From contig OX031069.1 of the NCBI GenBank assembly GCA_943736015.1, positions 39,280,728-39,344,727 on the forward strand: a stretch of 64,000 bases of DNA, read 5' to 3'. The notes under the pieces are model-generated. The model saw only the letters and a list, made by a program, of their open reading frames with translations. It made no database searches and had not been told where the DNA came from. The stretch comes from Tridacna crocea (Eukaryota; Mollusca; Bivalvia; Cardiida; Cardiidae). Of the stretch, positions 2,642 to 64,000 are shown one piece after another (within the stretch, counting starts at the first letter, position 1; each line of letters starts with the position of its first letter). A program made the translations under genes and the position numbers.

Positions 2642-3620
2642 TCTCTTTCTCTGTCTCTCTCCCCCCCCCTCTCTCTCTCTGCCTCCCTCCCTCCCTCCCT
2701 CTCTCTCTCTCTCTCTCTCTCTTTCTTTTTCCTCAATACCACAAGGGGCAGCATCAAGGTTATGCTCCAGTCTATGAACCCAAGGTTCTATGGTTCAATT
2801 GCCCGGCTAATCTAACATCCTTTTTCTAGACTGGTTGCTCAGTTAATGAAGTATGATCCCTAAAACTGCGAGTTTCAGGTTCGATTCCCCAGCTGTAACG
2901 ATTGTTTTCGAGGTTTCCTGACATTCATTGCGACAAATTCATTAATTTCTCTTCGCTCACATTTTTCACGAAACCAGTTATGTAGGGAAGCAACCATATT
3001 AGGTTGGAATTATGTGCAAAGTACTGGTAAATGAAATATCAGCACTGCATGGATAGGTGTACATGACGCCTTGATATAACTGATATGACTGAAATAATAC
3101 TCTTTCAACTCTATGCATCCGCTATAAACTTAAATTTCTTCGAACATCGTCAATCCATTTAAACTAAGGCAAGAGACAACTATATTTTCCTTTGTAATTT
3201 CATTTAGGGCTATAAATTATAGGTGAAAAAATAATCAGATATATGTCTTTTGAAGTAGTGGGGCATACAGGGCATAAAACCAGCATTCTTTCCTGATTAA
3301 AACAACTATTTCAATAGTCTTCATCTCTAAGATCGTTCTGAAATCATCTTTGTTACGTTTATTAAATCTTCAATTGATAAAACAATGCCAAGATCGGTAT
3401 CTCAGCCGGCAATCTATGTGACTTGAGTACAGGTTATTGCTGGTTCCAATTCCCAGTTCGGCAAATTTCTTTCCAAGTATTGATTAGTCATTGCAAGAAG
3501 ATCTGTCTCTCCCTCTCCCCCCTCCTCGCTCTGTCCCTCTCTCCCTCTTTTTCTGCTACTGTTTTAATGTTTATGACGTTGAGTATGTGAGAAAGAAGGT
3601 AAAAGATATAATATTGTGTT

Positions 3621-3916
3621 GAACACTCGATAAAGAAACTATGAAGGACTTGAGAATAGGAGGTCGCTGGTTTGATTCCCGGCTCGCCCAATTTTTTCCA
3701 AGCATTGCTTACAGTCATTGCCATAGGAATCATTCCTCTCTCAACGTTGACCATTGTTTTGACGATAGGTATGTGGGAAAGCAGCCAGTGGCAGCCAGTG
3801 GCTTGGAAAAAATAATGTACGTAATACCAGGAAAAGATATTACAGCAAAGAATAGATATGTGCACTGGCCACCTAAACTGAAATAATGTTTAACAATTCG
3901 ATCAATCAATGAATCA
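3621..3916 (+). mobile_element. Full-length SINE module of U1
   Basis: Head with GGTTTGATTCCCGGCTCGCC near 3668-3687, body with CATTGTTTTGACGATAGGTA, and an (AATC)n-type tail. It is the most complete SINE in each unit and recurs at the same place in all of them. This copy has a private 10-bp tandem duplication (GCAGCCAGTG) near 3781-3800. Confidence 0.8.
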
Positions 3917-4374
3917 AAACTGCACAATTATGATATGTTATGAATTATTTTCAATAAACAATTTCCTGTTGATCATAAAATGGGAACCTTGGCTTTTTGG
4001 CATTCTTAAGGTAAATATGTAAAGTTCATATGTCATTCAAAGTGGTCGTATGTAGAAATGCACAGGGTGATTACATAATTTTGTAAGATCTTGCCAGGAT
4101 GTCTCAATTGTGCCAGTTACAACATTTATATTCCATTTTAAAAAGACATAATGCAGAATTCTACACGGTTCTTCATCTACATTTTTATCAAAACAGATGA
4201 CATTCAAAATTACGTACCAAGGGAGCATCACATCAACTCAGAAAAGATCAAATATATAGCCTGGGGAGGATATGAAAAAAAGAAGCTATACTTATTGTAG
4301 GAAGTACATCTTTTGGAGGAAAAGGGTTTACATCATAGTCCGACCACAGCTGCAATCAAGTCAACAAAAAAATT

Positions 4375-4811
4375 GGACGGATGGATGGATGGACCTGTGG
4401 ATTGATAGAGAAACAGAGAGGAGTTTGCAGGTAGAACAAAGCAATAAAGGGAGACTAGTAGAGAGACAAAAAGTGAGAAAATAATGAAAGACAGACAATG
4501 AGACAGACGATGGTGGAATAGTGAAAGAGACAGAAACAGAGATAGAGAGATTGTGTGAAAGGTGGCAGTAAGATAAAAATTTGAAAGAGAAGATAGATAT
4601 AAGAAGAGGAGGGAAAGCAATTGGAAGGGATAGAGAGAAATAGAGAGCGAGAGAAGGACAAAAAGCGAGAAAGAGAGATAAAGTAGGCGATAACGAGAAT
4701 GACAGACAATGAGAGGGATAGAGCTACAGCGACAGACTGTAAGTGAAAAACAGTAGAGGAAAAGATAAGAAAGTGGAGTGGAGAGTAAGACAAAGAATTT
4801 GGAAATAAATA
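4375..4811 (+). repeat. Purine-rich tract of U1, left half
   Basis: Opens with (GGAT)n, then is dominated by GA-rich words such as GAGAGA, GAAAG and GACAGA. The pyrimidine strand carries long stop-poor frames rich in Ser, Leu and Phe; these are composition artefacts. The tract is interrupted by the element at 4812-6345 and resumes after it. Confidence 0.85.
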
Positions 4812-6345
4812 CTGTGAAACCATTAATATTCGTTGAGTACTAATTTTCGTTGATTTCGTGGGTAGGTAAGTCCACGAATTCAAGTTCCCGACGAAAGATA
4901 GGTCCTTGGCCATCTTCAACTTAGTTTGGTTCGGCTTCATTAATAACGAACATAACGACGCTAACGTTAAAATGTACCCACTCCCTATCGAACAGAAAGT
5001 TATTTACACCTTAGATTATTTGTACCTTTAAAGATTTCGTTAAGACTTAACAATTACCGAGTAAAAATAGTGATTTCTCCATTGCCTTAACTTCATTTCT
5101 TTTTTTGTTGTCCCGGCGACGACGGCATAAACACTGTTGAAAAATTACCTACACGCATGCATCGAGTCAAGTAATCCATGTTTATTTTTTACTGTTGCAT
5201 TTCGGCTGCGAGAATGTTTTTTTGCAAACAGCCAAACAAAATTTCTGCCGACTACACAAAACATGTGTGACACGACTGCCCAGGTGTTTTTGAAACAGCC
5301 ATTTCTAAACGCAATGTGACCATAGATTTCGTGGGGTAAAACAATCGTAAATTAGTACAACAAACGTTTTGTTTTACAACCCTCTTGCTCGAATGACCTA
5401 CACGTTACGTCATAGATCTACCCCAAATCAAAATTTTACTGCAAACGCGTGTGTACCTGCGACAGGCATAAATCATGTTGACGGACGGCTTGTTTTATAT
5501 TTGGGTCGTTCTAATACTGAATTTGGTGATGACAAGATGGCGGATTTCAACGTGTTGTTGGACGGTGTCAGACTAAACGGAACTTGCAGTCTGATCGTCT
5601 ATCTATCCCATATAGTTGAACAAGCTCGTATAAGAAAGCAACTTTAGGAAGTCGCACAAGATTGAATGGAAGCCGAAACTTGGGTCTACTACAATTTTGA
5701 CCCTTCACGCTTGTTCTAAATATAGATCTAGATGCAAATTTATCGGAGTTCACACTTACTATTTCAGACAAACTTTTGGTCAACAAGGTAAAACGTATCA
5801 TTTTAGAAACGACTCGAGCTCTTAACAAAATTTCTCTTTCCATCTGTCACAATATATCGGCGAATATGCGACAAGCAGTCTTGTTTTCCTAAGTGACCCA
5901 GACATGTGGGAAGGGTAGCTTCGGAAGACAGCAGTTTCAAAGCAGACGATTCTGAAAATGTCGTCGTATCTTTTACGGCTTAAAATTTGATTGTAAACTG
6001 TGACTACAGGACTAAATAATAACGGTGTAAATTGTAAATAATTACGCATGTCTTAATTGATAGACTCGAGACCGGCGATTAGATTATCAGATAAGTGTCA
6101 TAAAGTTTACACCCTTTACACTCGATACACTCGATACATGTATACTTGTCATCGATCGAGTCCCGTCTTATGTTATCTTTTTTTTTTTCTTTCACACACT
6201 TCATTAATGGACAGTTAAGAATTTTTTATACAACAAAAAAATTTTGGTTTGGAAATGGAAAATCAACGAATTTACGGTCCAACGAAAATGCCGAAATTGA
6301 AAAATCCACGAAATTTCATACCAACGAAATTATATGAATCCACAG
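4812..6345. mobile_element. Inverted-repeat DNA transposon or long MITE in U1
   Basis: The element is 1534 bp. It starts CTGTGAAACCATTAATATTC and ends with TATATGAATCCACAG, whose reverse complement starts CTGTGGATTCATATA. The termini are therefore imperfect inverted repeats, and both subterminal regions are rich in TTCGTGG/CCACGAA and TTCGTTG/CAACGAA words. TA flanks both ends (4810-4811 and 6346-6347), consistent with a TA target duplication. No other unit has it at this place: the equivalent sites near 12680, 27329, 33487, 39449 and 45837 run straight through. I see no transposase. TA duplication suggests a Tc1/mariner-like or similar mobiliser (inference). Direction is unknown. Confidence 0.8.
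5369..5647 (+). other. Unrecognised 92-codon open frame inside the transposon
   Basis: Runs from an ATG at 5369. A second ATG near 5537 has the context AAGATGGCGG, which resembles a eukaryotic start context. The translation has no motif or family I recognise, is not transposase-like and is present only once. It could be chance or a captured host fragment. I do not call it a gene. Confidence 0.15.
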
Positions 6346-6482
6346 TATATATAGAGAGAGACAGACAGACAAAGATTGAGAGGCAGAGGTGAAAAGAGAG
6401 AAATAGCGAAACAAGAGACAGAGAGGCAGAGAGAGTGAAAGACCGAAGTGAAAGAGAGTGGTAACAGAAAAATGAGGGTGAA
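6346..6482 (+). repeat. Purine-rich tract of U1, right half
   Basis: Continuation of the GA-rich tract after the transposon, with GAGAGACAGACAGACAAAG and repeated GAGAG words up to AAAAATGAGGGTG. It aligns with the 3' part of the purine tract in every other unit. Confidence 0.85.
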
Positions 6483-6490
6483 TACATATT

Positions 6491-8385
6491 TAAGACCCTA
6501 TAGACTAAGGGTTAAACTTATGAAGAAGAAGCATGGGCCAAAGCATTATCAATGAAATCACAATGCAGGCATAGGTTCGTCATCAGGGGGTACATTCAAT
6601 TAAGTTAGTTTGAAATATGAAGGAAGCAGATAGAACAAGTTAATCGACTGGAGCTAAAAAACGAGTGAGGTCATAGGTGTAAATACTAAGGATATATTTG
6701 TCGAACTGAGAGAATATATGATCTACCATAGATACATGCTTACGACAATAGGTTGAAGTAATAGAAGAGACATTCTTTCAAGGTTTTAGGGAACATCGAA
6801 CTGAGAATGTATTTCACCGTCTGAGAGAAAGTAGAAGGAACCAAAAGAACGTCTTGCTGACTGGCGGTGCAGGGTAACGGCTTGGGAGTATAATCTCTGA
6901 AAGGAAACAGGTTTATAGCTTCATGATACATCTCACATCGAATGGCTTCCATTGTTAAAAGGACATAAAACGGGCTCTTGCAGTAATCAATGGACAGAGG
7001 ACACATCTTCGGACTGTGGGTATATCAAGTGAGCAAGGGATACAGTCTAATATAATACGGGTAAATTATCAGTTAGAACACAGCTTTAGGACATTATGGT
7101 GTATCCGTGTGACTCGGGTTTATCTCATAGGCTAGGGTTTCTCAAGGCTAAATTGGGTTCAACGCTCTTACTAATATTAGCAGACTGGAAGAAAAAATAT
7201 TATTCCGATAAACTTACACCTAACAGATTGAGGGTTCATATCAGATTAAGAGAGTATAGGCAAACTGTACAATCGGTAACTTTTCAGCGAGGCCAGTGAT
7301 TCAGGGCCTTGGGGTACATTCAACTGACAGTAGGTACCATTTCAAAGACGTGTAAGAGGACATGTGGAAACATTCCACGAACTAAGGATACAATCTCAGG
7401 GACTCAATATGCTTGTAACTGTCTGATGGTAGGTTTTGGGCGCTGTGGGTATGAAATCGCGAACTGTAGGTACAAGCTTATAGGACATATTGCAGTCACA
7501 GAAAGGTGGAAATACAGTTTCAGGACCTATTTAAAAGAAATATTAAGCGATATAGAGCTCGACGCTGAAGGTGTAAGACTCAATCAAACAAATAGCAGAC
7601 CTATTTTTGGGACTGAAGGAACATCTCTTGAACTGAAGGTAAAAGAAGCAGATTGAAGGGGGCTAAGCTACGACATTTGGTTTATTTCGAAGTAAAAACA
7701 AGTGTCGGGATCTTCAATTACATTTGACAGACCGACGATACATCTTACAGAGAGACACATACAAAGCTCCAAAAAGTGCTTAAGAAAAAGGGTCTGGTTG
7801 ATTTTCAAGCGTTTGTTGACTCCTGTCATGGGCTCATCACACGAATTAGAAGTACATACTCGGATTGGGTAAAATGAGACTAAAGACATGGTAAGGACTA
7901 ATGGGCAAGTATTGCGGACAAAATGTATTTCTCCCGATATGAAAGTACAACCTGTGGATTGAGGATACAATCAAGACTGAGAGGACTATTTTTTACGAAA
8001 ATGACGACAGGGTTTCTTCTTATCTTATTATCCTTCCTACGAAGTCAGAAAAAGAAATCAAGTGCCAATCGGATCAATATTCTGCGAAGTACTTGTAAAA
8101 GAAGGTAAGGATCTCCCTCCAAATAGCTTTCAACATTTTATTGGATCCAAAAATGTAGAGAAAATATCGAGCGCCTCAAAATGAATTTCTGCACATTTCT
8201 AGACAAACGACCACAAAAACCTACAGTGTTCACACATTTTGTTTTTTCCATTATTGTTCTTTATAAAAAGTTACAAGCTCTTCTCGCACATGACAACAGA
8301 TTGAAAATATATCTCCCGATGTGAAAGTAAAGCCAGTGGACTGAGAATACAATATCTTAGACTGAGAATATTGGTATGTTCTATA
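6491..8385 (+). repeat. Decayed minisatellite block of U1
   Basis: About 1.9 kb made of imperfect recurrences of a ~20-21 bp motif near CTGAGGGTACAATCTCAG. It has the full-length form found in U6-U9 and lacks the deletions of U4 and U5. A chance frame of 115 codons at 7309-7656 crosses the motif copies. Confidence 0.75.
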
Positions 8386-8526
8386 GAATTGACAACAGTT
8401 ATTGCGATAGGGTTTATTCATATCTCAGCGCTCAAAATTGTTTCGACAAAGTTATGCGAGGAAAGCAGCCAAGGCCAAAAGAAAACAATAAAGTAAACAT
8501 GTCAAAATCAAATACACTCCTTCTCA

Positions 8527-9010
8527 CTCTCTCTCTATCTCTCTCTCTTTTTCTCTCGCTCTCGCAGGTCGTCTTGCCCAGTTGCTTGATCGGTAAAGTG
8601 CACGGCTTCAAACCCATACAGTCGCAGGTTATGTCCCCAAGCTTCATCAATTTTTATCCAACTTACGATGGTATTCGATGTTGCAAGATTGATTTTTTGC
8701 TTAATGCTGATCATTCTATCAACTAGAGTTCTTTTGAAATGCAGCCAGTGGTTGGAAAGTCTGTTACAAGAGCACTGGCCGTGCCATTTAGAAGACATCA
8801 ATTAAACACAACGCTGAAAGAAAAAACGCTAACAAAAAATTCTGGCTCCGCTACAACATTCAGCACTATAAACGTAATCATAATCAAGAGCATTTACAAG
8901 ACATTAAGTAAACACAGCGCTAAAAGAAAACACGCCACAAAAAATTCTGGCTCTGCTACGACATCGAGCACTATCAACTTAATCATAATCATCATCAAAG
9001 CAATTATTAA
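8527..9010 (+). mobile_element. (TC)n, tRNA-like head and fused SINE bodies of U1
   Basis: A (TC)n run at about 8527-8568 is followed by a tRNA-like head: TTGCCCAGTTGCTTGATC in the A-box position and GGTTATGTCCCCA in the B-box position. SINE body sequence (GCAGCCAGTGGTTGGAAAG) follows. A second body copy begins about 160 bp later, with AACACAGCGCTAAAAGAAAA near 8912, without the ~0.45 kb spacer of other units. The head reads ACAGTCG then a TCCCCAAGCTT ending, variants later seen in the second head of U6-U9. Confidence 0.65.
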
Positions 9011-9600
9011 ACATCTTCACATTTGCTGTAAACAAAAAATGTTTTCCTCACTACTATTTAAGTTCACTTTTCAACATTGTTATAAAATATCAAGAAACCA
9101 TCTTTGTTTTACATTCATATCACTTCCATTTTCTAACTTGAGTTCAAGCTTCTCCACAGTATTTCCAATTCCTAGTCCACAGCTTTTTCAGGTTTATTTT
9201 CTTTTAAATCCTCAAGTTTTAATTCTTTCGCCCCTCCTAAAACATCAGTAAACAACAAGAAACTCTACACTTATCATTTCCACTCCTTCCATAATATGAT
9301 GACAGGCTTGGGGATATGATACCAGTATTTCTACCATTACAGTAAGATCTTCCTATCCAAGCAAACTTGACGCATTAACACATTTTCGTTTACCTTATCA
9401 ATGGCCCCTTTAGGATTCGATCGATTTCACAAGTAGACTTCCGCAACATACTTCTTTCCTTTTGATCACTTCTTTACAAAACCAAATTGTGTCAATGATT
9501 CCTAAACAGGAGATATCCTCGACTCCTTTCAAGTAGGTTTTATTTCCTTCAATTCACTAAACACTTATACATCACTTTTCTTTACAAAAAGTTGTATTTT
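9011..9600. other. AT-rich spacer of U1
   Basis: No gene recognised. It corresponds to the post-SINE spacer of other units, with markers such as TCCACAGTATTTCCAAT and GATGACAGGCTTGGGGATAT. The spacer contains the site where other units carry a C-run followed by an A-run; here that site is short (near 9230-9240). Confidence 0.6.
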
Positions 9601-9744
9601 CTTCTTCCACATAACAACCCTCAAGGAATAAAGTAATCATTTCAAAAACAAATACTCTGTTTCTCTGTCTCTCTCTCTCTGCCAATATCACTAAAAACAA
9701 CGGCAAAGTATCCAAAGGTTCTTTACTTTGATTCCACGGCTAAT
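9601..9744 (+). repeat. Internal subrepeat 1: leader, (TC)n, tRNA-like head
   Basis: Begins CTTCTTCCACATAACAACCC, continues with TTTCAAAAACAAATACTC, a pyrimidine tract, CCAATATCACTAAAAACA and a B-box-like TTTGATTCCACGG. It shares this order with the stretches at 10223-10383 and 10449-10630, so the unit holds at least three homologous subrepeats in one orientation. Confidence 0.7.
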
Positions 9745-10222
9745 CTTATTTTCAGGATTGTATAAGTTCATTGTAACAGGGTCCATTCTTCTTCCACCGT
9801 TGACCTATGTTCAAGAAATCTACGTTTGAAAACAAACAGTGATTTGGGAATGGCTAAAGGCAAATTGCCGGTAAAAGAAATTCCGATATCGCAAATATAG
9901 GTGCGTGCGATTTAATTCGAATTATGTTTCAGTCGTCAGATCGGGCCCATAACTTTCATTTTCGTTTACATGGCTCCCTTTAAGATCTGATCAATTACAA
10001 AAGAAACTTCATCAACATAATTCTCAGCACTGTTGCTCAGTTGATGACGTAAAATGCCTGAAAATTAGGCTTCATAGGTTCGATTCTCCAGCTTTTGGAT
10101 TTTTTATCCGAGGATTAATGAGTTATTGCGACAAAATTCGTGAATTTCTCGTCGCTCACATTTTCTTTCTTTCTGCATTTCACAACACATCTGAACATTA
10201 CTTTTCGTAATAAAACATTATT

Positions 10223-10383
10223 TCTTCTCGCATATAACCCTCTAGAAAAGTAGTACCATTTCAAAATAAGATACTCTCTCTCTCTAGCTCTCTATCTCTC
10301 TCCAATATTACTCCAAAGGTAGTGTCAAAAATGTTTTAAAATTGTAAACGCAGAGTACTATAGTTCGATTATCCGGCTAATTT
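10223..10383 (+). repeat. Internal subrepeat 2: leader, (TC)n, tRNA-like head
   Basis: CTTCTCGCATATAACCCTCT, TTTCAAAATAAGATACTC, (TC)n, CCAATATTACTCCAAAGG, then TAGTTCGATTATCCGGCTAA. Same layout as the other two copies. The part after the (TC)n is lost in U5-U9, where the pyrimidine tract is joined directly to the leader of subrepeat 3. Confidence 0.7.
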
Positions 10384-10448
10384 CTCATCGATCAAGTTTT
10401 TCACCCTCAGATATACAACATAACTGTATATCATTTTCTTTACAAATT

Positions 10449-10514
10449 TCTTCTCCCAAATAACAACCATCCAGAAGTGAAGTATACATTTCAAAATCAA
10501 ATACTCTCTTTCTC

Positions 10515-10548
<34 letters not shown>

Positions 10549-10630
10549 ATTATATCCCTTTTTTCCAATATCAAAGTTATGCTCCAGACTGTAAACCCAA
10601 GGTTCTATGGTTCAATTGCCTTGTTAATTT
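10449..10630 (+). repeat. Internal subrepeat 3: leader, (TC)n, tRNA-like head (crosses the U1/U2 phase point)
   Basis: CTTCTCCCAAATAACAACCA, TTTCAAAATCAAATACTC, a long (TC)n at 10504-10548, CCAATATCAAAGTTATG, then GGTTCTATGGTTCAATTGCC. The start of its (TC)n is my arbitrary unit boundary. Confidence 0.7.
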
Positions 10631-11407
10631 AACATCCTTTTCCTAGACTAGTTGCTCAGTTGATGAAGTATGATGCCTAAAACTGGGAGTTTTCAGGTTC
10701 GATTCCCCAGCTGTAACGATTGTTTTCGAGGTTTCTTGACATTCATTAATTTCTCTTCGCTCACATTTTTCACGAAACCATTTATGAAGGGAAGTAACCA
10801 TATTAGGTTGGAGCTATGTGCAAAGTACTGGTAAATGAAATATTAGCACTGCATGGATAGGTGTACATGACGCCCTGATATAACTGATATGACTGAAATA
10901 ATACACTTTCAACTCTATGTATCCGAACATCGTCAATCCATTTAAACTAAGGCAAGAGACAACTATATTTTCCTTTGTAATTTCATTTAGGGCTATAAAT
11001 TATACGTGGACAAATAATCAGGTATATGTCTTTTGAAGTAGTGGGGCATACACGGCATAAAACCAGCATTCTTTCCTGCTTAAAACAATTATTTCAATAG
11101 TCTTCATCTCTAAGATCGTGCTGAAATCATCTTTGTGACGTTTATTAAATCTTCAATTGATAAAGCAATGCCAAGATCGGTATCTCAGTCGGCAATCTAT
11201 GTGACTTGAGTACAGGTTATTGCTGGTTCCAATTTTTAGTTCGGCAAATTTCTTTCCAAGTATTGATTATAAAGTCATCTTTGTCTCTCTCCCTCTCCCC
11301 CTCCTCGCTCTGTCCCTCTCTCTCTCTCTCTCTCTTTCTCTGCTACTGTTTTAATATTTATGATGTTGAGTATGCGAGAAAGAAGGTAAGTAATATAATA
11401 TTGTGTT

Positions 11408-11698
11408 GAGCAGTCGATAAAGAAACTATAAAGGACTTGAGAATAGGAGGTCGCTGGTTTGATTCCCGACTCGCCCAATTTTTTCCAAGCATTGCTTATA
11501 GTTATTGCCATAGGAATCATTCCTCTCTCAACGTTGACCATTGTTATGACGATAGGTATGTGGGGAAGCAGCCAGTGGCTTGGAAAAAATATTGTACGTA
11601 ATACCAGGATAAGAAATTACAGCAAAGAATAGATAGGTGCAATGCCCACCGAAATATAAACTGAAATAATGTTTAACACTTCATTCAATCAATGAATC
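11408..11698 (+). mobile_element. Full-length SINE module of U2
   Basis: Head with GGTTTGATTCCCGACTCGCC, body, and a tail carrying a TCATTCAATCAATGAATC variant. Same position and orientation as in the other units. Confidence 0.8.
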
Positions 11699-12235
11699 AA
11701 AACTGCACAATTATGATATGGAGAATCTTACGTGAACGTTTATGAATTATTTTCAATAAACAATTTCCTGTTGATCATAAAATGGGAACCTTGGCGTTTT
11801 GGCATTCTTAAGGTAAATATGTAAAGTTCATATGTCATTCAAAGTGTTCGTATGTAGAAATGCACTGGGTGATTACATAATTTTGTAAGATCTTGCCAGG
11901 ATGTCTCAATTGTGCCAGTTACAATATTTATATTCCATTTTAAAAAGGCATAATGCAGATTTCTACATGGTTCTTCATCTACATGTTTATCAAAACAGAT
12001 CACATTCAAAATTACGTACCGAGGGAGTATCATATCAACTGAGAAAAGATCAATTATATAGCCTGGGGAGGATATGAAAAAAGGAAGCTATACTTATTGT
12101 AGAAAGTACATCTTTTCGGGGGAAAGGATTAACATCATAGTCCGACAATAAAGTCCTATAAACGTGAGAAACACAACAAGGAGACCACAGCTGCAATATC
12201 AAGTCAACAAAAAGAGATGGATGAATAGTTCATTG

Positions 12236-12698
12236 GAAGGATGGACGGATGGATGGATGGATGGACCTGTGAGATGATAGAGAAACAGAGAGAAGTTTGC
12301 TGGTAGAACAAAGAAATAAAGGGAGACTAGTAGAGAGATAGAACGTGAGAAAATAATGAAAGATAGAAAGTGAGACAGAAGATGGTGAAATAGTGAAAGA
12401 GATAGAAACAGAGATAGAGAGATTGTGTGAAAGGTGGCAGTAAGATAAAAAATAGAAAGAGAGGAGAGATATAAGAAGAGGAGGGAAAGCAATGGAAAAG
12501 ACGAGAGAGAGATAGAGAGCGAGAAGGACAAAAAAGCGAGAAGTAGAGATAAAGCGGGCGAAAGCGAAAAAACAGAGACAAGGAGAGGAATAGAGAGCTA
12601 CATCGAGAGACTGTAAGTAAAAAACAGTAGAGGAAAAGATAAGAAGGAGGAGTGGAGAATAAGACAAAGAGTTCGGAAATGAAAAGAGACTGAGGCAG

Positions 12699-12729
<31 letters not shown>

Positions 12730-12873
12730 ATGAGAGAGGGAGAAAGAAATAGACAAAGATTGAGAGACAGAGATGAAAAGGGACAGAAATAGCGAAACGA
12801 GAGACAGAGAGAGACAGAGACAGAGAGAGTGAAAGACCGAAGTGAAAGAGAGTGGTTACGGAAAAATGAGGGT
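12236..12873 (+). repeat. Purine-rich tract of U2
   Basis: About 640 bp of GA-rich sequence opening with (GGAT)n interrupted by GGAC. A (GA)n run near 12707-12729 marks the place where U1 has its transposon. Long minus-strand frames here are low-complexity artefacts. Confidence 0.85.
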
Positions 12874-12883
12874 GAATACATAT

Positions 12884-14767: not shown

Positions 14768-14905
14768 TTGATAACAGTTATTGCGACAGGGTTTATTCAT
14801 ATGTCAGCGCTCAAAATTGTTTCAACGAAGTTATGCGATGAAAGCAGCCAGTGCCAAAAGAAAACAATGAAGTAAACATGTAAAAATCAAATACTCTCCT
14901 TCTCA

Positions 14906-14942
<37 letters not shown>

Positions 14943-52500: not shown

Positions 52501-52509
52501 GAATACATA

Positions 52510-54421: not shown

Positions 54422-56599
54422 ATTGATAACAATTATTGCGACAGGGTTTATTCATATCTCAGCGCTCAAAATTGTTTCGACGAAGTTATGCGAGGAAAGC
54501 AGCCAGTGCCAAAAGAAAACAATTAAGTAAACATGTGAAAATCAAATACACTCTTTCTCATTCTCTATCTCTCTCCCCTTTTCTCTCGCTCTCGCAAGTC
54601 GTCTTCCCCAGTTGCTTGATCGGTAAAGTGCACGGCTTCAAACCCATACAGACGTAGGTTCGGTCCCCACAGTTCACCAATTTTTATCCGACTAACAATG
54701 GTATTCGATGCTGCAGGATTTATTTTTTGCTTAATGCCGATCATTCTATCGACTGAAGTTCTTTTGAAATGCAGCCAGTGGTTGGAAAGACTGTTACAAG
54801 AGCACTGGCCGCGCCATTTAGAAGACATCAATTTAACACAACGCTGAAAGAAAACACGCTAACAAAAAATTCTGGCTCCGCTACAACATCCAGCACTATC
54901 AACGTAATCATGATCATCATCCAAGCAACTATTAAATAGCTTTACAACTGCTATAAACAAAAAAGTTTTGCTCACTACTATTCATGTTCACTTTCCAACA
55001 TTGTTAAAAAAAATCAGGAAAACATCTTTGTTCTACATTCAGGGCTTCAAATCTATACAGTCGAAGGTTCTGTTCCCAAGCTTTTCTTTTATAATGCAGC
55101 CAGTGGTTGGAAAGACTGTTACAAGAGCACTGGCCGCGCCATTTCCAAGACATCAAGTTAACACAGCGCTAAAAGAAAACACGCCAACAAAAAATTCTGA
55201 CACTGCTACGACATCGAACACTATCAACTTAATCATAATCATCATCAGAGCAATTATTAAATAGCTTCACATCTGCTGTAAACAAAAAATGTTTTCCTCA
55301 CTACTATTTAAGTTCACTTTTCAACATTGTTATAAAATATCAAGAAACCATCCTTGTTTTACATTCATATTACTTCCATTTTTTATCTCGAGTTCAAGCT
55401 TCTCCACAGTATTTCCAATACCTAGTCCACAGCTTTTTCAGGTTTATTTTCTTTTTAATCCTCAAGTTTTAATTCTTTCGCCCCCCGCCCAAAAAAAAAT
55501 CAGTAAACAACAATAAACTATGAAATTATCATTTCCACTCCTTCCATAATACGATGACAGGCTTTGGGATATGATACCAGTATTTTCTACCACTACAGTA
55601 AGGTCTTTCTTTCCAAGCAAACATGACGCATTAACACGTTTTTCGTTTACCTTATCAATGGCCCCTTTAGGATTCGATCGATTTCACAAGTAGACTTCAG
55701 CAACATACTTCTTTTCTTTTGATCACTTCTTTACAAAACCAAATTGTGTCAAGGATTCCTAAACAGGAGATATCCTCGACTCCTTTCAAGTAGGTTTTAT
55801 TTCCTTCTATTCACTAAACACTTATACATCACTTTTCTTTACAAAAAGTTATATTTTCTTCTTGCACATAACAACCCTCCAGGAATTAAGTAATCATTTC
55901 AAAAACAAATACTCTGTTTCTCTGTCTCTCTGTCTCTCTGCCAACATCACTAAAAACAATGGCAAAGTATCCAATGGTTCTATAGTTTGATTCCACGGCT
56001 AATCTAATTTTCAGGATTGTATAAGTTCATTGTAACGGGGTTCATTCTTCTTCCACCGTTGACCTATGTTTAAGTAATCTACGTTTGAAAACAAACAATG
56101 GCTTGGGAAAGGTTAAAAGCAAAGTGCCGGTAAAATAAACTCCAATATCGCAAATATAAGTGCGTGCGACTTAATTCGAATTATGTTTCAGTCGTCAGAT
56201 CGGGCCCATAACTTTCATTTTTGTTGACATGGCTCCCTTTAAGATCTGATCAATTACAAAAGAAACTTCATCAACATAATTCTCAGCACTGTTGCTCAGC
56301 TGATGACGTAAAAGGCCTGAAAATTAGGCTTCATAGGTTCGATTCTCCAGCTTTTGGATTTTTTATCCGAGGATTAATGACAGATATTGCGACGAAATTC
56401 GTGAATTTCTCGTCGCTCACATTTTCTTTCTTTCTGCATTTCACAACACATCTGAACATTATTTTTCGAAATAAAACATTATTTCTTCTCGCATATGACC
56501 CTCTAGAAAAATAGTACCATTTCAAAATAAGATTCTCTCTCGCTCTCTCTCGCAAAAAACAACCATTCAGAAGTGAAGTATACATTTCAAAATCAAATG

Positions 56600-56621
56600 C
56601 TCTCTCTCTCTCTCTCTCTCT
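56600..56621 (+). repeat. (TC)n microsatellite opening the reference unit
   Basis: Pure TC run preceded by the leader TTTCAAAATCAAATGC. Its length varies between units: 2642-2731 in U1, 10504-10548 in U2 and 63045-63080 in U10. Confidence 0.9.
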
Positions 56622-56640
56622 GCCTTTTTCCCAATATCAA

Positions 56641-56696
56641 AGTTATGCTCCAGACTGTAAACCCAAGGTTCTATGGTTCAATTGCCCGGCTAATCT
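56641..56696 (+). mobile_element. tRNA-like head, module 1
   Basis: B-box-like GGTTCAATTGCC at 56675-56686, preceded by AAACCCAAGGTTCTATG. No SINE body follows; the next head begins about 25 bp later. It looks like a SINE 5' fragment. Confidence 0.55.
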
Positions 56697-56710
56697 AACA
56701 TCCTTTTCCT

Positions 56711-56943
56711 AGACTGATTGCTCAGTTGATGAAGTATGATGCCTAAAGCTGGGAGTTTTCAGGTTCGGTTCCCCAGCTGTAACGATTGTTTTCTAGGTTT
56801 CTTGACATTCATTGAGACAAATTCATTAATTTCTCTTCGCTAACATTTTTCACGAAACCAGTTATGTAGGGAAGCAAACCATATTAGGTTGGAGTTATGT
56901 GCAAAGTACTGGTAAATGAAATATCAGCACTGCATGGATAGGT
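56711..56943 (+). mobile_element. tRNA-like head and SINE body, module 2
   Basis: A-box-like TTGCTCAGTTGATGAAG near 56718, B-box-like GGTTCGGTTCCCC at 56762-56774. The body has CATTCATTGAGACAAATTCA and GAAACCAGTTATGTAGGGAA, decayed forms of the SINE body at 1601-1880. It ends with CACTGCATGGATAGGTG. The stems of a tRNA cloverleaf cannot be drawn convincingly, so this is not a tRNA gene. Confidence 0.65.
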
Positions 56944-57246
56944 GTACATGACGCCCTGATATAACTGATATGACTGAAATAATACACTTTCAACTCTATG
57001 TATCCGAACATCGTCAATCCATTTAAACTCAGGCAAGAGACAACTATATTTTCCTTTGTAATTTTATTTAGGGCTATAAATTATACGTGGACAAATAATC
57101 AGATATGTCTCTTGAAGTAGTAGGGCATACACGGCATAAAACCAGCATTCTTTCCTGCTTAAAACAATTATTCCAATAGTTTTCATTTCTAAGATCATGC
57201 TGAAATCATCTTTGTGACGTTTATTAAATCTTCAATTGATAAAACA
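56944..57246. other. Spacer between modules 2 and 3
   Basis: About 300 bp without a recognised gene. It begins with a possible SINE 3' relic (GATATGACTGAAATAATAC). Most of this spacer is deleted in U6. Confidence 0.55.
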
Positions 57247-57340
57247 ATGCCAAAATCGGTATCTCAGTCGGCAATCTACGTGACTTGAGTACAGGTTATT
57301 GCTGGTTCCAATTCTTAGTTCGGCAATTTTTTTCCAAGTA
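57247..57340 (+). mobile_element. tRNA-like head, module 3
   Basis: A-box-like ATCTCAGTCGGCAAT near 57261, B-box-like GGTTCCAATTC at 57304-57314 followed by TTAGTTCGGCAA. It is followed by a pyrimidine tract. Confidence 0.6.
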
Positions 57341-57371
57341 TTGATTATAAAGTCATTGCAAGAAGATTTTA

Positions 57372-57439
57372 CTCTCTCTCCCTCTCCCCCCTCCTCGCTC
57401 CGTCCCTCTCTCTCTCTCTCTCTCTCTCTCTTTTTCTCT
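57372..57439 (+). repeat. Pyrimidine tract between modules 3 and 4
   Basis: Mixed (TC)n and C-rich sequence with CCCTCTCCCCCCTCCTCGCT. The length differs in every unit and is longest in U8. Confidence 0.85.
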
Positions 57440-57505
57440 GCTACTGTTTTAATGTTTATGACGTTGAGTATGTGAGAAAGAAGGTAAATGATATAATACT
57501 GTGTT

Positions 57506-57796
57506 GAGCACTCAATAGAGAAACTATAAAGGACTTGAGAATAGGAGGTCGCTGATTTGATACCCGGCTCGCCCAATTTTTTTTCAAGCATTGCTTACAG
57601 TCATGTCTTATGAATCATTCCCCTCTCAACGTTGAACATTGTTTTGACGATAGGTATGTGGGAAAGCAGCCAGTGGCTTAGAAAAAATATTGTACGTAAT
57701 ACCAGGAAAAGAAATTACAGCAAAGAATAGATAGGTGCACTGCCCACCGAAATATAAACTGAAATAATGTTTAACACTTCAATCAATCAATGAATC
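57506..57796 (+). mobile_element. Full-length SINE, module 4
   Basis: The best-preserved SINE of the unit. Head with GATTTGATACCCGGCTCGCC (57554 onward), body with CATTGTTTTGACGATAGGTA, GGAAAGCAGCCAGTGGCTTA and GAAATATAAACTGAAATAAT, and an AATCAATCAATGAATC tail. It matches the free SINE copies at 1601-1880 and 1956-2308 part by part. In late units the B box is degraded (GATTTGATACCC), so promoter activity is doubtful. Confidence 0.8.
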
Positions 57797-58330
57797 AAAA
57801 CAGCACAATTATGATATGGAGAATCTTACGTGAACGTTTATGAATTATTTTCAATAAACAATTTCCTCTTGATCATAAAATGGGAACCTTGGCTTTTTGG
57901 CATTCTTAAGGTAAATATGTAAAGTTCATTTGTCATTCAAAGTGGTCGTATGTAGAAATGCACAGGGTGATTACATAATTTCGTAAGATCTTGCCAAGAT
58001 GTCTCAATTGTGCCAATTAAAATATTTATATTCCATTTTAAAAAGGCATGATGAAGAATTCTACATGGTTCTTCATCTCCATATTCATCAAAACAGATGA
58101 CATCCAAAATTACGTACCGAGGGAGCATCATATCAACTGAGAAAAGGTCAATTATATATCCTAGGGAGGATATGAAAAAAGGAAGCTATACTTATTGTAG
58201 AAAATACATCTTTTGGAGGAAAAGGATTAACATCATAGTCCGACAATAAAGTCCTATAAACGTGAGAAACACAACAAGGAGACCATAGCTGCAATATCAA
58301 GTAAACAAAAAGATATGGATGAATGGTTGA
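57797..58330. other. Spacer between the SINE and the purine tract
   Basis: About 530 bp. It starts with TTTTCAATAAACAATTTCC, which contains an AATAAA-like hexamer. A 64-codon minus-strand open frame lies within it (57937-58131). The end has AACACAACAAGGAGACCATA. No known gene recognised. Confidence 0.6.
57937..58131 (-). pseudogene. Unrecognised 64-codon frame conserved in several units
   Basis: An open frame of exactly 64 codons is found at this place in U1 (4037-4231), U2 (11839-12033), U3 (19588-19782), U6 (38623-38817), U7 (45019-45213), U8 (51495-51689) and here. Composition is protein-like (Cys, Trp and His residues; conserved end SWQDLTKLCNHPVHFYI), unlike the Ser/Leu artefacts nearby. 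U4 and the ectopic copy in U2 have an in-frame stop, and U5 has a frameshift from extra A bases. Differences between U1-U3 and U6-U9 mostly change amino acids. I recognise no family. A relic of a mobile-element protein is possible; chance is also possible. Confidence 0.25.
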
Positions 58331-58940
58331 TTGGACGGACGAATGGATGGATGGATGGATGGACCTGTGGATTGATAGAGAAACAGAGAGAAGTTTGCAG
58401 GTAGAACAAAGAAATAAAGGGAGACTAGTAGGGAGACAGAACGTGAGAAAATGATGAAAGATAGATAGTGAGACAGAAGATGGTAATAAGAAGATGGTGG
58501 AATAGTGAGAGACAGAAACAGAGATAGAGAGATTGTGTGAAAGGTGGCAGTAAGATAAAAAAAATAGAAAGAGAGGAGAGATATACAAGAAAGAGGGAAA
58601 GCAATGGGAAGGGATAGAGAGAAAAGAGATAAATCGGGCGACAGGGAGAAAGAGAGACAAGAAGAGGGATAGAGAGCTACAGCAAGAGACTGTAAGTGAA
58701 AAACAGTACAGGGAAAGATAAGAAGGAGGAGTGGAGAGTAAGACAAAGAGTTCCGAAATGGATAGAGAGTGACGGAGAGAGAGAGAGAGAGAGAGAGAGT
58801 GAGTGAAAGAAATAGACAGACAAAGATTGAGAGACAGAGGTGAAAAGAGACAAAAATAGCGAAACGAGAGACAGAGAGAGACAGAGACACAGAGAGTGAA
58901 AGACCGAAGTGAAAGAGAGTGGTTACAGAAAAATGAGGGT
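58331..58940 (+). repeat. Purine-rich tract of U9
   Basis: About 610 bp, mostly A and G on the + strand, opening with (GGAT)n and containing a (GA)n run near 58774-58799. Such strand asymmetry can favour triplex or other non-B DNA (general knowledge). Overlapping minus-strand frames of 197 and 272 codons are a side effect, because stop codons need A and G and the minus strand is nearly all pyrimidine. Confidence 0.88.
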
Positions 58941-58949
58941 GAATACATA

Positions 58950-60868
58950 TTTAAGACCCTATACACTGAGGGTTAAACTTATGAAGAAGAAGTAGGGGCC
59001 AAAGCATTATCAATGAAATCACATTGCAGGCATTGGTGCGTCATCGGAGGGTACATTCAATTAAATTAGTTTGAAATATGAAGGAAGCAGATAGAACAAG
59101 TTAATCGACTTGAGCTAAAAAACTAGTGAGGTCATAGTCGTAAATACTAAGGATATATTTGTCGAACTGAGAGAATATGTGATCTACCATAGATACATGC
59201 TTATGACATTATGTTGAAGTAATAGAAGAGACATTCTTTCAAGGTTTGAGGGAACATCGAACTCAGAATGTATTTCTGCGTCAGAGAAAGTAGAAGGAAC
59301 CAAAAGAACGTCTTGCTGACTGGCGGTGCAGGGTAACAGCTTGGGAGTAAAATATCTGAAAGGAAACAGGTTTATAGCTTAATGATACATCTCACTTTGA
59401 ATGCCTTCCATTCCTAAAAGAACATAAAAAAAGCCTCTTGAAGTAAGCAATGGACAGAGGACACATCTTCGGACTGTGGGTACATCAAGTGAGCAAGGGA
59501 TGCAGTGTAATTTGGAAACTGGTAAATTTTAAGTTAGAACACAACTTTAGGACATTATGGTGTATCCGAGTGACTCAGGTTTATCTCATAGACTAGGGTT
59601 TCTCAACGCTAAATGAGGTTCAACGCTCTGACTAATATTAGCACACTGGAAGAAAAGTTATTATTCCGACTTTCTGTAAACTTACACCTAACAGATTGAG
59701 GGTACATATCAGATTAAGAGTGTATAGGCAAACTGTACAATCGTTAACTTTTGAGCGAGGCCAGTGGTTCAGGGCCTAGGGGTACATTCAAATGACTGTA
59801 GGTACGATTTCAAAGACGTGTAAGACGACATGGGGAAACATTCCACGAACTAAGGATACAATCTCAGGGACTCAATATGCTTGTAACTGTCTGAGGGTAG
59901 GTTTTGGGCGCTGTGGGTATGAAATCGCCAATTGTAGGTACAGGCTTAGGAAATACTGCAGTCACAGAAAGGTGGAAATACAGTTTCAGGGCCTATTTAA
60001 AAGCAATAATAAGCGATATAGAACTCGACGCTGAAGGTGTAAGACTCAATCAAACAAAAAGCAGACCTATTTTTGGGACTGAAGGAACATCTCTTGAACT
60101 GAAGGTAAAACAAGCAGATTCAAGGGGGCTAATCCACGACATTTGGTTTATTTCGAAGTAAAAACAAGTGTCTGAATCTTCAATTACATTTGACAGACCG
60201 ACGATACATTTTACAGAAAGACACATACTAAGGTCCAAAAAGTGCTTAAGAAAAAGGATCTGGTTGATTTTCAAGCGTTTGTTGACTCCTCTCATGGGCT
60301 AACGGTTCATCACATGAATTAGGAGTACATACTCGGATTGGGTAAAATGAGACTAAAGACGATGGTAAGGACTAATGGGCAAGTATTGCGGACAAAATGT
60401 ATTTCTCCCGATGTGAAAATACAACCTGTGGATTGAGGATACAATCAAGACTGAGAAGACTATGTTTTACGGAAATGACGACAGGGTTTCTTCTAATCTC
60501 TGCGCTTATTATCCTTCCAACGAAGTCAGAAACAGAAAGCAAGTGCCAATCGTAACAATATTGTGCGAAGTACTGGTAAAAGAAGGTAAGGATCTCCCTC
60601 CAAATAGCTTTCAACATTTTATTGGATCCAAAAATGTCCAGAAAATATCGAGCGCCTCAAAATGAATTTCTGCACATTTCTAAACACACGACCACAAAAA
60701 CCTAGTGTTCACACATTTTGTTTTTTCCATCATTGTTCTTTACAAACAGTCACAAGCTCTTCTCGCACATAACAACAGACTGAAAATATATCTCCCAATT
60801 TGAAAGTAAAACCAGTGGACTGAGAATACAATATCTTAGACTGAGAATATTGGTATGTTCTATAGAAT
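58950..60868 (+). repeat. Decayed minisatellite block of U9, ~20-21 bp motif
   Basis: About 1.9 kb of imperfect motif copies near CTGAGGGTACAATCTCAG. Clear copies include CAGATTGAGGGTACATATCA near 59692, GAACTAAGGATACAATCTCA near 59847, CTGTCTGAGGGTAGGTTTTG near 59886, GCGCTGTGGGTATGAAATCG near 59908 and CAATTGTAGGTACAGGCTTA near 59930. The run near 59847-59950 is spaced about 20-21 bp; elsewhere the phase slips. Short frames cross it (59792-60034 and 59904-60161) but indels in U2-U5 break them. Confidence 0.75.
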
Positions 60869-60965
60869 TGATAACAATTATTGCGACAGGGTTTATTCAT
60901 ATCTCAGCGCTCAAAATTGTTTCGACGAAGTTATGCGAGGAAAGCAGCCAGTGCCAAAAGAAAAC
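60869..60965 (+). mobile_element. SINE body fragment at the minisatellite edge
   Basis: ATTGCGACAGGGTTTATTCA, then ATTGTTTCGACGAAGTTATG and GAGGAAAGCAGCCAGTG match SINE body order (compare 2106-2185) without a head of its own. The head, if it existed, has merged with the minisatellite. Confidence 0.6.
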
Positions 60966-60994
60966 AATTAAGTAAACATGTGAAAATCAAATAC

Positions 60995-61039
60995 ACTCTT
61001 TCTCACTCTCTATCTCTCTCCCCTTTTCTCTCGCTCTCG
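60995..61039 (+). repeat. Pyrimidine tract before module 5
   Basis: TC-rich run with a CTCGCTCTCGCAG end, preceded by the leader GAAAATCAAATACACTC. It is partly lost in U6 near 41645. Confidence 0.85.
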
Positions 61040-61385
61040 CAGGTCGTCTTGCCCAGTTGCTTGATCGGTAAAGTGCACGGCTTCAAACCCATACAGACGT
61101 AGGTTCGGTCCCCACAGTTCACCAATTTTTATCCGACTAACAATGGTATTCGATGTTGCAGGATTTATTTTTTGCTTAATGCCGATCATTCTATCGACTG
61201 AAGTTCTTTTGAAATGCAGCCAGTGGTTGGAAAGACTGTTACAAGAGCACTTGCCGCGCCATTAAGAAGACATCAATTTAACACAACGCTGAAAGAAAAC
61301 ACGCTAACAAAAAATTCTGGCTCCGCTACAACATCCAGCACTATCAACGTAATCATGATCATCATCCAAGCAACTATTAAATAGC
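61040..61385 (+). mobile_element. tRNA-like head and SINE body, module 5
   Basis: A-box-like TTGCCCAGTTGCTTGATC near 61049, B-box-like GGTTCGGTCCCCA at 61102-61114, then a body with GCAGCCAGTGGTTGGAAAG. The sequence after this (ACGCTGAAAGAAAACACGCT and AAATTCTGGCTCCGCTACAA) is not in the free SINEs at 1601-2308, so it is another 3' region or a separate element. Confidence 0.65.
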
Positions 61386-61479
61386 TTTACAACTGCTATA
61401 AACAAAAAAGTTTTGCTCACTACTATTCATGTTCACTTTCCAACATTGTTAAAAAAAAATCAGGAAAACATCTTTGTTC

Positions 61480-61710
61480 TACATTCAGGGCTTCAAATCT
61501 ATACAGTCGAAGGTTCTGTTCCCAAGCTTTTCTTTTATAAAGCAGCCAGTGGTTGGAAAGACTGTTACAAGAGCACTGGCCGCGCCATTTACACGACATC
61601 AAGTTAACACAGCGCTAAAAGAAAACACGCCAACAAAAAATTCTGACACTGCTACGACATCGAACACTATCAACTTAATCATAATCATCATCAGAGCAAT
61701 TATTAAATAG
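61480..61710 (+). mobile_element. tRNA-like head and SINE body, module 6
   Basis: B-box-like GGTTCTGTTCCC at 61512-61523 with the preceding CTTCAAATCTATACAGTCG, then a body starting GCAGCCAGTGGTTGGAAAG at about 61542. It is a second copy of module 5 with a shortened head. This head exists in U6, U8 and U9, is overwritten in U7, and is absent from U2-U5, which have AT-rich spacer here. Confidence 0.6.
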
Positions 61711-62356
61711 CTTCACATCTGCTGTAAACAAAAAATGTTTTCCTCACTACTATTTAAGTTCACTTTTCAACATTGTTATAAAATATCAAGAAACCATCCT
61801 TGTTTTACATTCATATCACTTCCATTTTTTATCTCGAGTTCAAGCTTCTCCACAGTATTTCCAATACCTAGTCCACAGCTTTTTCAGGTTTATTTTCTTT
61901 TTAATCCTCAAGTTTTAATTCTTTCGCCCCCCGCCCAAAAAAAATCAGTAAACAACAATAAACTATGAAATTATCATTTCCACTCCTTCCATAATACGAT
62001 GACAGGCTTTGGGATATGATACCAGTATTTTCTACCATTACAGTAAGGTCTTTCTTTCCAAGCAAACATGACGCATTAACACGTTTTTCGTTTACCTTAT
62101 CAATGGCCCCTTTAGGATTCGATCGATTTCACAAGTAGACTTCAGCAACATACTTCTTTTCTTTTGATCACTTCTTTACAAAACCAAATTGTGTCAAGGA
62201 TTCCTAAACAGGAGATATCCTCGACTCCTTTCAAGTAGGTTTTATTTCCTTCTATTCACTAAACACTTATACATCACTTTTCTTTACAAAAAGTTATATT
62301 TTCTTCTTGCACATAACACCCCTCCAGGAATTAAGTAATCATTTCAAAAACAAATA
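61711..62356. other. AT-rich spacer of U9
   Basis: About 650 bp without a gene. It contains a short C-run/A-run near 61927-61944, TTCGATCGATTTCACAAGTA, and at its end the leader CTTCTTGCACATAACACCCC of the next subrepeat. Confidence 0.6.
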
Positions 62357-62384
62357 CTCTGTTTCTCTGTCTCTCTGTCTCTCT
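62357..62384 (+). repeat. Pyrimidine tract before module 7
   Basis: CTCTGTTTCTCTGTCTCTCT-type run, preceded by TTTCAAAAACAAATA. Short and fairly constant in late units. Confidence 0.8.
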
Positions 62385-62620
62385 GCCAACATCACTAAAA
62401 ACAATGGCAAAGTATCCAATGGTTCTATAGTTTGATTCCACGGCTAATCTAATTTTCAGGATTGTATAAGTTCATTGTAACGGGGTTCATTCTTCTTCCA
62501 CCGTTGACCTATGTTTAAGTAATCTACGTTTCAAAACAAACAATGGCTTGGGAAAGGTTAAAAGCAAAGTGCCGGTAAAATAAACTCCAATATCGCAAAT
62601 ATAAGTGCGTGCGACTTAAT
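62385..62620 (+). mobile_element. tRNA-like head and SINE body, module 7
   Basis: B-box-like AGTTTGATTCCACGG near 62429. The body has CATTGTAACGGGGTTCATTC, CCACCGTTGACCTATGTTT and AACAATGGCTTGGGAAAGG, in the same order as the free SINEs but decayed. No clear tail. Confidence 0.6.
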
Positions 62621-62724
62621 TCGAATTATGTTTCAGTCGTCAGATCGGGCCCATAACTTTCATTTTTGTTTAAATGGCTCCCTTTAAGATCTGATCAATT
62701 ACAAAAGAAACTTCATCAACATAA

Positions 62725-62910
62725 TTCTCAGCACTGTTGCTCAGCTGATGACGTAAAAGGCCTGAAAATTAGGCTTCATAGGTTCGATTCTCCAGCTTTT
62801 GGATTTTTTATCCGAGGATTAATGACAGATATTGCGACGAAATTCGTGAATTTCTCGTCGCTCACATTTTCTTTCTTTCTGCATTTCACAACACATCTGA
62901 ACACTATTTT
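62725..62910 (+). mobile_element. tRNA-like head and SINE body, module 8
   Basis: A-box-like TTGCTCAGCTGATGACG near 62737, B-box-like GGTTCGATTCTCC at 62781-62793, which is closest to the canonical B box of all the modules. The body has GATATTGCGACGAAATTCGT and GAATTTCTCGTCGCTCACAT. Confidence 0.65.
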
Positions 62911-62977
62911 TCGAAATAAAACATTATTTCTTCTCGCATATGACCCTCTAGAAAAATAGTACCATTTCAAAATAAGA

Positions 62978-62998
62978 TTCTCTCTCGCTCTCTCTCGC
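62978..62998 (+). repeat. Short pyrimidine tract at a deletion junction
   Basis: TCTCTCTCGCTCTCTCTCGC followed by AAAAAACAACCATTCAGAAG. In U1-U3 about 180-230 bp with a tRNA-like head lies between these two parts; here they are directly joined. The same junction is present in U5-U9. Confidence 0.8.
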
Positions 62999-63044
62999 AA
63001 AAAACAACCATTCAGAAGTGAAGTATACATTTCAAAATCAAATG

Positions 63045-64000
63045 CTCTCTCTCTCTCTCTCTCTCGTTCTCTCTCTCTCTCATTCTCTGCCTTTTTCCCA
63101 ATATCAAAGTTATGCTCCAGACTGTAAACCCAAGGTTCTATGGTTCAATTGCCCGGCTAATCTAACATCCTTTTCCTAGACTGATTGCTCAGTTGATGAA
63201 GTATGATGCCTAAAGCTGGGAGTTTTCAGGTTCGGTTCCCCAGCTGTAACGATTGTTTTCTAGGTTTCTTGACATTCATTGAGACAAATTCATTAATTTC
63301 TCTTCGCTAACATTTTTCACGAAACCAGTTATGTAGGGAAGCAAACCATATTAGGTTGGAGTTATGTGCAAAGTACTGGTAAATGAAATATCAGCACTGC
63401 ATGGATAGGTGTACATGACGCCCTGATATAACTGATATGACTGAAATAATACACTTTCAACTCTATGTATCCGAACATCGTCAATCCATTTAAACTCAGG
63501 CAAGAGACAACTATATTTTCCTTTGTAATTTTATTTAGGGCTATAAATTATACGTGGACAAATAATCAGATATGTCTCTTGAAGTAGTGGGGCATACACG
63601 GCATAAAACCAGCATTCTTTCCTGCTTAAAACAATTATTCCAATAGTTTTCATTTCTAAGATCATGCTGAAATCATCTTTGTGACGTTTATTAAATCTTC
63701 AATTGATAAAACAATGCCAAAATCGGTATCTCAGTCGGCAATCTACGTGACTTGAGTACAGGTTATTGCTGGTTCCAATTCTTAGTCCGGCAATTTTTTT
63801 CCAAGTATTGATTATAAAGTCATTGCAAGAAGATTTTACTCTCTCTCCCTCTCCCCCCTCCGTCCCTCTCTCTCTCTCTCTCCCTCTCTCTCTTTTTCTC
63901 TGCTACTGTTTTAATGTTTATGACGTTGAGTATGTGAGAAAGAAGGTAAATGATATAATACTGTGTTGAGCACTCAATAGAGAAACTATAAAGGACTTGA
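63045..64000 (+). repeat. Macrosatellite unit U10, cut by the window edge
   Basis: Begins with a longer pyrimidine tract that has a CGTT interruption (63045-63080), then modules 1-3, a pyrimidine tract at about 63839-63900, and the first bases of the full SINE from 63968. It is nearly identical to U9 over this length. The array continues beyond the window. Confidence 0.88.

Follow-up and report, generated by a model that had tools for sequence, protein, structure and literature searches.

The window analysed here, a stretch of 64,000 nucleotides from the bivalve Tridacna crocea, very probably contains the left edge of a non-coding macrosatellite whose units are kept alike by gene conversion together with unequal crossing-over and copying during break repair. 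Nine complete units of 6,103–7,833 bp (typically ~6.4 kb), followed by 956 bp of a tenth, are arranged head to tail in one orientation from about position 2,642 to the window end (Table 1). A preliminary description of this DNA had proposed ten macrosatellite units filling nearly the whole window; self-matches of 16-mers and unit alignments confirm the array, with the tenth unit being partial. The regular spacing near 6.1–7.8 kb expected there was seen as peaks in the 16-mer self-match distances at 6.1, 6.35–6.45, 6.9 and 7.7 kb, plus multiples. Repeated 16-mers cover 45,964 window positions, whereas five Markov resamplings of the window gave 0–4. Analysed alone, positions 1–2,670 have 16. The alignments of unit 1 to the other units start at 2671–2701, within the CT microsatellite at the array edge.

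Table 1. Features of the array and its left flank. Positions are those of the window; the units begin at homologous positions.
Feature	Position	Strand	Remarks
Decayed minisatellite block remnant, left flank	48..1039	+	possible very old 'unit 0'
CT microsatellite	2642..2726	+	left edge of high-identity array; TRF
Unit 1	2671..10503	+	7833 bp, 1534-bp insertion included
Insertion, unit 1 only	4812..6345	.	1534 bp; imperfect terminal inverted repeats (CTGTG...CACAG), TA each side
Unit 2	10504..18245	+	7742 bp, 752-bp ectopic copy included
752-bp piece in unit 2	16224..16975	+	matches unit 4 (26478–27229), different within-unit position
Unit 3	18246..25192	+	6947 bp
Unit 4	25193..31295	+	6103 bp
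Unit 5	31296..37537	+	6242 bp
Unit 6	37538..43665	+	6128 bp
Unit 7	43666..50128	+	6463 bp
Unit 8	50129..56599	+	6471 bp
Unit 9	56600..63044	+	6445 bp; reference unit
AG-rich purine tract of unit 9	58360..58900	+	limits set by eye; TRF 58764–58896
Decayed 20-bp minisatellite block of unit 9	58960..60480	+	cyclic profile; limits by eye
Internal tandem duplication of unit 9	61204..61813	+	TRF, self-blast; period 326 bp, 87% matches
Unit 10, first 956 bp	63045..64000	+	array runs off window

Pairwise identity is 98.1–99.1% among units 6–9, as expected for homogenised units inside a macrosatellite, versus 92.3–94.0% among units 1–5, indicating a satellite edge which is decayed outside and homogenised inside. 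Private substitutions from unit 1 to unit 9 number 129, 107, 93, 103, 75, 41, 19, 14 and 16, the low counts in units 6–9 being due in part to changes common to these four close relatives. Apart from its large unit, the array looks like an ordinary satellite in which the outermost copies are old and those farther in are young and nearly identical.

Possible traces of exchange between units were seen at several places. The extra length of unit 2 is due to a 752-bp piece that shares 98.4% identity with a segment of unit 4, compared with 89.6% for the next best unit, and a 71-bp exact tandem duplication spans its right junction (TRF 16956–17099, period 71, 100% matches). When the units are compared in 13 bins, units 2 and 3 are each other's nearest neighbours, at 96–98% identity, throughout the last four (from 61100) but nowhere in the first nine, a pattern which could also reflect shared descent rather than conversion. 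Of 63 indels spanning 15 or more columns, 20 end in a purine/pyrimidine tract versus about 8% expected, an excess to which alignment noise in low-complexity sequence may contribute.

Unit 1 owes its extra length to a 1,534-bp inverted-repeat element without counterpart in units 2–9. Its ends form a 53-column inverted-repeat alignment (obtained without shuffle control) and, with ends and borders determined by eye, are flanked by TA as in TA-target DNA transposons. None of its four scanned open reading frames (ORFs) reached the Pfam cut-off. The element reads as a non-autonomous DNA transposon.

The units apparently consist of simple repeats and the remains of old mobile elements. The purine tract and the decayed minisatellite named in the preliminary description were both recovered in unit 9: the purine fraction is 0.79–0.84 in 150-bp bins from 58400 to 58849, with a TRF call, and a cyclic profile run over unit 9 and the flank fits the minisatellite to a 20-bp unit. 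The seed of this profile was picked by eye from the same window, which makes the two halves of the test partly dependent on each other. GGTACA-like motifs spaced 20 apart point to the same period; plain autocorrelation places lags 54 and 74 ahead of 20 in unit 9, and lags 41 and 8 ahead of 21 in the flank. The proposed SINE content received only moderate support from an excess of A boxes followed by B boxes at tRNA spacing: unit 9 has nine such pairs on the plus strand and four on the minus strand, compared with a mean of 2.06 and a maximum of 6 in 50 one-strand resamplings. Three of the nine plus-strand pairs lie within the minisatellite block, two overlap, and some are probably chance.

The position 2642, proposed as the array start, limits only the high-identity part, because a much older, colinear copy of the minisatellite block lies at 48–1039. 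This block is 60–65% identical to that of the units, in the same order (best blastn E-value 1.45e-34; nhmmer 1.1e-38 and 3.8e-29), while nhmmer found no match in five resampled flanks at E-values up to 10. The local alignment score of the flank is 121, while none of 30 resampled flanks scored above 28, and we rejected the idea that 48–1039 is unrelated to the array. Since the block is colinear, its sequence may represent a far older 'unit 0' outside the called array boundary; it may also be a dispersed copy of the minisatellite block. No match in the unit was found for 1040–1600, the SINE-like matches of 1603–2309 are not specific to a single position, and the match adjoining the array edge (2564–2660) is weak (E-value 0.052). 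The results for these three segments count against the whole flank being one unit.

We propose that the array arose by tandem repetition of a genomic segment in which SINE-like copies and CT microsatellites stood together with a purine tract and a degenerate minisatellite of 20-bp period. Exchange between units would then have homogenised them, with unequal crossing-over, gene conversion and break-repair copying maintaining their similarity. Unit 4 would be the source of the 752-bp piece in unit 2, purine/pyrimidine tracts may promote breaks, and the array probably continues rightward beyond the window.

A tandem gene array existing for dosage, with exons or a gene for a non-coding RNA in every unit, is very unlikely. 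Eleven stretches (seven plus, four minus) lie within an ORF of at least 60 amino acids in at least eight of nine units, regardless of frame agreement. The longest, 58236–58973 on the minus strand, is however the purine tract and is open because of its composition. No tRNA was found, Rfam gave no match when the window was scanned at gathering scores or unit 9 at E-values up to 1, and none of 28 scanned ORFs reached the Pfam cut-off, although such scans could miss genes that are short, intron-split or RNA-only. The scanned set comprised eight ORFs of at least 120 amino acids, 12 from unit 9, four from the flank and four from the unit 1 insertion, the latter 20 being a subset of those listed for these regions. 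The eight were taken from 35 ORFs of that length; judging by inspection, 26 of the other 27 are purine-tract readings and one (57232–57594) corresponds to an ORF already in the scanned set. Sub-cut-off Pfam matches at E-values up to 1 occurred in eight of the 28 ORFs (5/8, 1/10 and 2/10); the best, COQ7 (E-value 0.0051; 16.9 bits versus a cut-off of 23.5), could be quoted for a gene array, and all were set aside as chance. Six representative units are 84–96% identical per 150-bp bin, and no slow-evolving, conserved island was seen among them. These scans bear out the earlier statement that ordinary multi-copy gene arrays do not fit: no rDNA, histone, tRNA or snRNA gene was detected in the units. 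Unit 9 also gave no match to phage records (blastn, distant-match mode), and the 20-bp repeat, searched as an exact 22-base pattern, had no match in viral contigs.

A chromosomal role of the array, as centromeric, subtelomeric or sex-chromosome heterochromatin, would be compatible with a non-coding macrosatellite. Large arrays with decayed edges occur in such places, but no feature of the window is specific to them, and we regard this role as rather unlikely. Also unlikely is a self-renewing macrosatellite that is amplified from a centre lying rightward of the window, possibly functions as a centromere or a different chromosomal domain, and is driven by break-induced copying at the purine and CT tracts, which are present in every unit and would be hotspots of breakage; unit 0 (60–65%), units 1–5 (~93%) and units 6–10 (~97–99%) would then be successive age layers. 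That a single locus was laid down repeatedly in the assembly is scarcely credible. Only the high similarity of units 6–9 favours such an artefact, whereas units 1–5 differ mutually by 6–8% and have substitutions and insertions of their own, and one locus laid repeatedly would not yield these unit-specific differences.

The homogenised non-coding macrosatellite leaves the general picture of satellite evolution unchanged. As an assembled large-unit satellite edge, ranging from a 60–65% relic to 99% copies, it provides a readable record of array growth and decay.

The term 'unusual satellite type', used in the preliminary description, is somewhat strong, as several-kb units with mobile-element remnants are known (PMC3018141). 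The human macrosatellites RS447, D4Z4, DXZ4, TAF11-Like, SST1 and ZAV likewise consist of several-kb head-to-tail units (3–5.3 kb); two human macrosatellites are 28–32% repeat-masked, and TAF11-Like monomers are 99.3–99.7% alike (PMC3018141). However, each unit of RS447, D4Z4 and TAF11-Like contains an ORF, and CpG islands are present in ZAV (PMC3018141), whereas in the T. crocea units no gene was found and the CpG ratio is 0.64–0.79. Among molluscs, PcH-sat of the limpet Patella caerulea also contains SINE-derived sequence, a 118-bp segment like Nin-SINE, but in a monomer of 179 bp (PMC11121367), compared with several decayed SINE-like copies in the ~6.4 kb unit described here. Kilobase-scale tandem units are likewise present in Crassostrea gigas (PMC8268682) and Limnoperna fortunei (PMC12818792). 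The longest monomers of these two satellitomes, 3,287 and 2,891 bp respectively, speak in favour of the term, since the T. crocea unit is about twice as long.

Comparison of the window with itself confirms the array proposed in the preliminary description. Self-matches of 16-mers show the regular spacing, with peaks at 6.1, 6.35–6.45, 6.9 and 7.7 kb and their multiples, and blastn of the window against itself aligns the units with one another on the plus strand over long distances (at least 140 alignments longer than 400 bp). The head-to-tail arrangement thus stands. The proposed number of ten needs qualification: boundaries set by homologous starts delimit nine complete units of 6,103–7,833 bp (U1–U9) and only 956 bp of a tenth (U10). 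Repeated 16-mers cover 45,964 positions of the window, whereas five versions of it resampled with a Markov model have 0–4. The left flank (the first 2,670 bases), taken by itself, has 16 such positions.

Positions of features in unit 9 and of unit-specific rearrangements
Feature	Position	Location	Remarks
Unit 9	56600–63044		Reference for unit anatomy
CT microsatellite		Start of unit 9
SINE-like modules with CT tracts		Unit 9, between opening CT microsatellite and AG-rich tract
AG-rich tract	~58360–58900	Unit 9	Purine fraction 0.79–0.84 in bins from 58400 to 58849
Decayed minisatellite block	~58960–60480	Unit 9
Further SINE-like modules		Unit 9, after minisatellite block	Include 326-bp internal tandem duplication
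Internal tandem duplication, 326 bp	61204–61813	Unit 9, within later SINE-like modules
Deletion junctions	near 28554–28568 and 34930–34944	Units 4 and 5
Inverted-repeat insertion, 1,534 bp	4812–6345	Unit 1 only	Imperfect inverted ends, TA on each side

The purine tract described previously was recovered in unit 9 as an AG-rich stretch. At tRNA spacing, this unit carries nine A-/B-box pairs on the plus strand and four on the minus strand, whereas 50 one-strand resamplings averaged 2.06 pairs and never exceeded 6. Because three of the nine plus-strand pairs lie inside the minisatellite block and two overlap each other, the modules are treated only as candidate SINEs. The SINE tail seems to resemble molluscan SINEs.

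The absence of recognizable genes was borne out: the window yielded no tRNA gene and no Rfam match at gathering scores (none at E up to 1 in unit 9), and none of 28 scanned ORFs matched Pfam at cut-off. Eight of these ORFs gave sub-cut-off matches with E no higher than 1, which were taken for chance; the strongest was to COQ7 (E 0.0051, 16.9 bits versus a cut-off of 23.5). Eleven stretches lie inside ORFs of at least 60 amino acids in at least eight of the nine units, regardless of frame, the longest being the purine tract. Identity per 150-bp bin is 84–96% among six representative units.

The decayed minisatellite is supported by cyclic 20-position profiles, which transfer between unit 9 and the flank in both directions. 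The profile trained on unit 9, ACTGAGGGTACATCTCACGG, scores 0.19 per base on the flank versus 0.01 (sd 0.02) in resampled flanks, and that trained on the flank, ACTGAGGTTACATCTCACGG, scores 0.166 on unit 9 versus −0.010 (sd 0.014). Negative scores were obtained for two other stretches of the unit and for the reverse-complemented flank. A 17-base core occurs 16 times in the window with up to three mismatches (0.15 expected), homologous sites of different units being counted repeatedly. Plain autocorrelation is less clear than the profile: in unit 9 it ranks lag 20 behind 54 and 74, and in the flank lag 21 behind 41 and 8.

Flank positions 48–1039 are colinear with the minisatellite block at 60–65% identity. 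When the flank is cut into 12 overlapping 150-base pieces, all 12 have their best positions in unit 9 in order, their offset drifting from 59020 to 59042, jumping by about 140 bases, and then drifting from 59184 to 59201; individual pieces score 20–49, the low-scoring ones being indistinguishable from noise. The whole match scores 121, compared with at most 28 in 30 resampled flanks, 15 for the reverse complement and 35 when one half of the block is aligned to the other, which shows that common descent, not a shared period alone, underlies it. With a profile of the units, nhmmer found flank matches at 1.1e-38 and 3.8e-29, and none in five resampled flanks. Separately, the flank contains a direct duplication at 2033–2147 (59 bp, 1.9 copies, 87% matches).

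We read the flank block as the possible remnant of a very old unit, 'unit 0'. Against this count the failure to find a counterpart of flank 1040–1600 in the unit and the weakness of the match adjoining the array edge (E 0.052, nhmmer); alternatively, the flank carries a dispersed copy of the minisatellite block. The flank block lies 6.56–6.72 kb from that of unit 1, or about 5.0–5.2 kb after subtraction of an inserted element, the latter falling about 1 kb below one period. This element, a 1,534-bp insertion, accounts for the extra length of unit 1. It has a CpG ratio of 1.39 versus 0.64–0.79 in the units, none of its four scanned ORFs matches Pfam at cut-off, and it is perhaps a recent arrival. 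Its ends seem to resemble elements common in bivalve genomes.

In ungapped columns, mutual identity is 98.1–99.1% among U6–U9 and 92.3–94.0% among U1–U5, with 91.8–94.3% between the two groups; the partial U10 matches U6–U9 at 96.8–99.0%. Private substitutions from U1 to U9 number 129, 107, 93, 103, 75, 41, 19, 14 and 16, the low counts of the last units partly reflecting changes common to close relatives. Such a pattern is well known from the edges of satellites, where units at the rim no longer take part in exchange and so decay.

The nearest neighbour of a unit varies along its length. U2 and U3 are each other's closest unit (96–98%) in the last four of 13 bins (unit 9 61100 onward) and in none of the nine earlier ones. 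A 752-bp piece of unit 2 (16224–16975) is 98.4% identical to 26478–27229 of unit 4, the next best unit reaching 89.6%; it occupies another within-unit position than in unit 4, and unit 3 lacks it at the corresponding site. An exact 71-bp tandem duplication spans its right junction (whole region 16224–17099). The piece looks like a product of template switching during break repair, which would have placed unit 4-like sequence in unit 2. Units 4 and 5 both lack some 490 bp that correspond to 60256–60735 of unit 9, with an identical junction in self-blastn, a sign of common descent. About 15 bases at the junction align to both sides, and the deletion perhaps arose between short direct repeats. 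The alignment contains 63 distinct indels 15 or more columns long. Purine or pyrimidine tracts hold an end of 20 of them (about 8% expected), a proportion that alignment uncertainty may inflate.

No description of this Tridacna crocea array was found in the literature searched, the coverage being partial and judged mostly by listings. The longest satellite monomers measure 3,287 bp in Crassostrea gigas (PMC8268682); in Limnoperna fortunei the maximum is 2,891 bp (PMC12818792). In a crayfish paper, 'macrosatellite' denotes any monomer above 100 bp (PMC13130569). The units of human macrosatellites are also several kb long, and two of these satellites are 28–32% repeat-masked (PMC3018141). One limpet satellite includes a segment derived from a SINE (PMC11121367).
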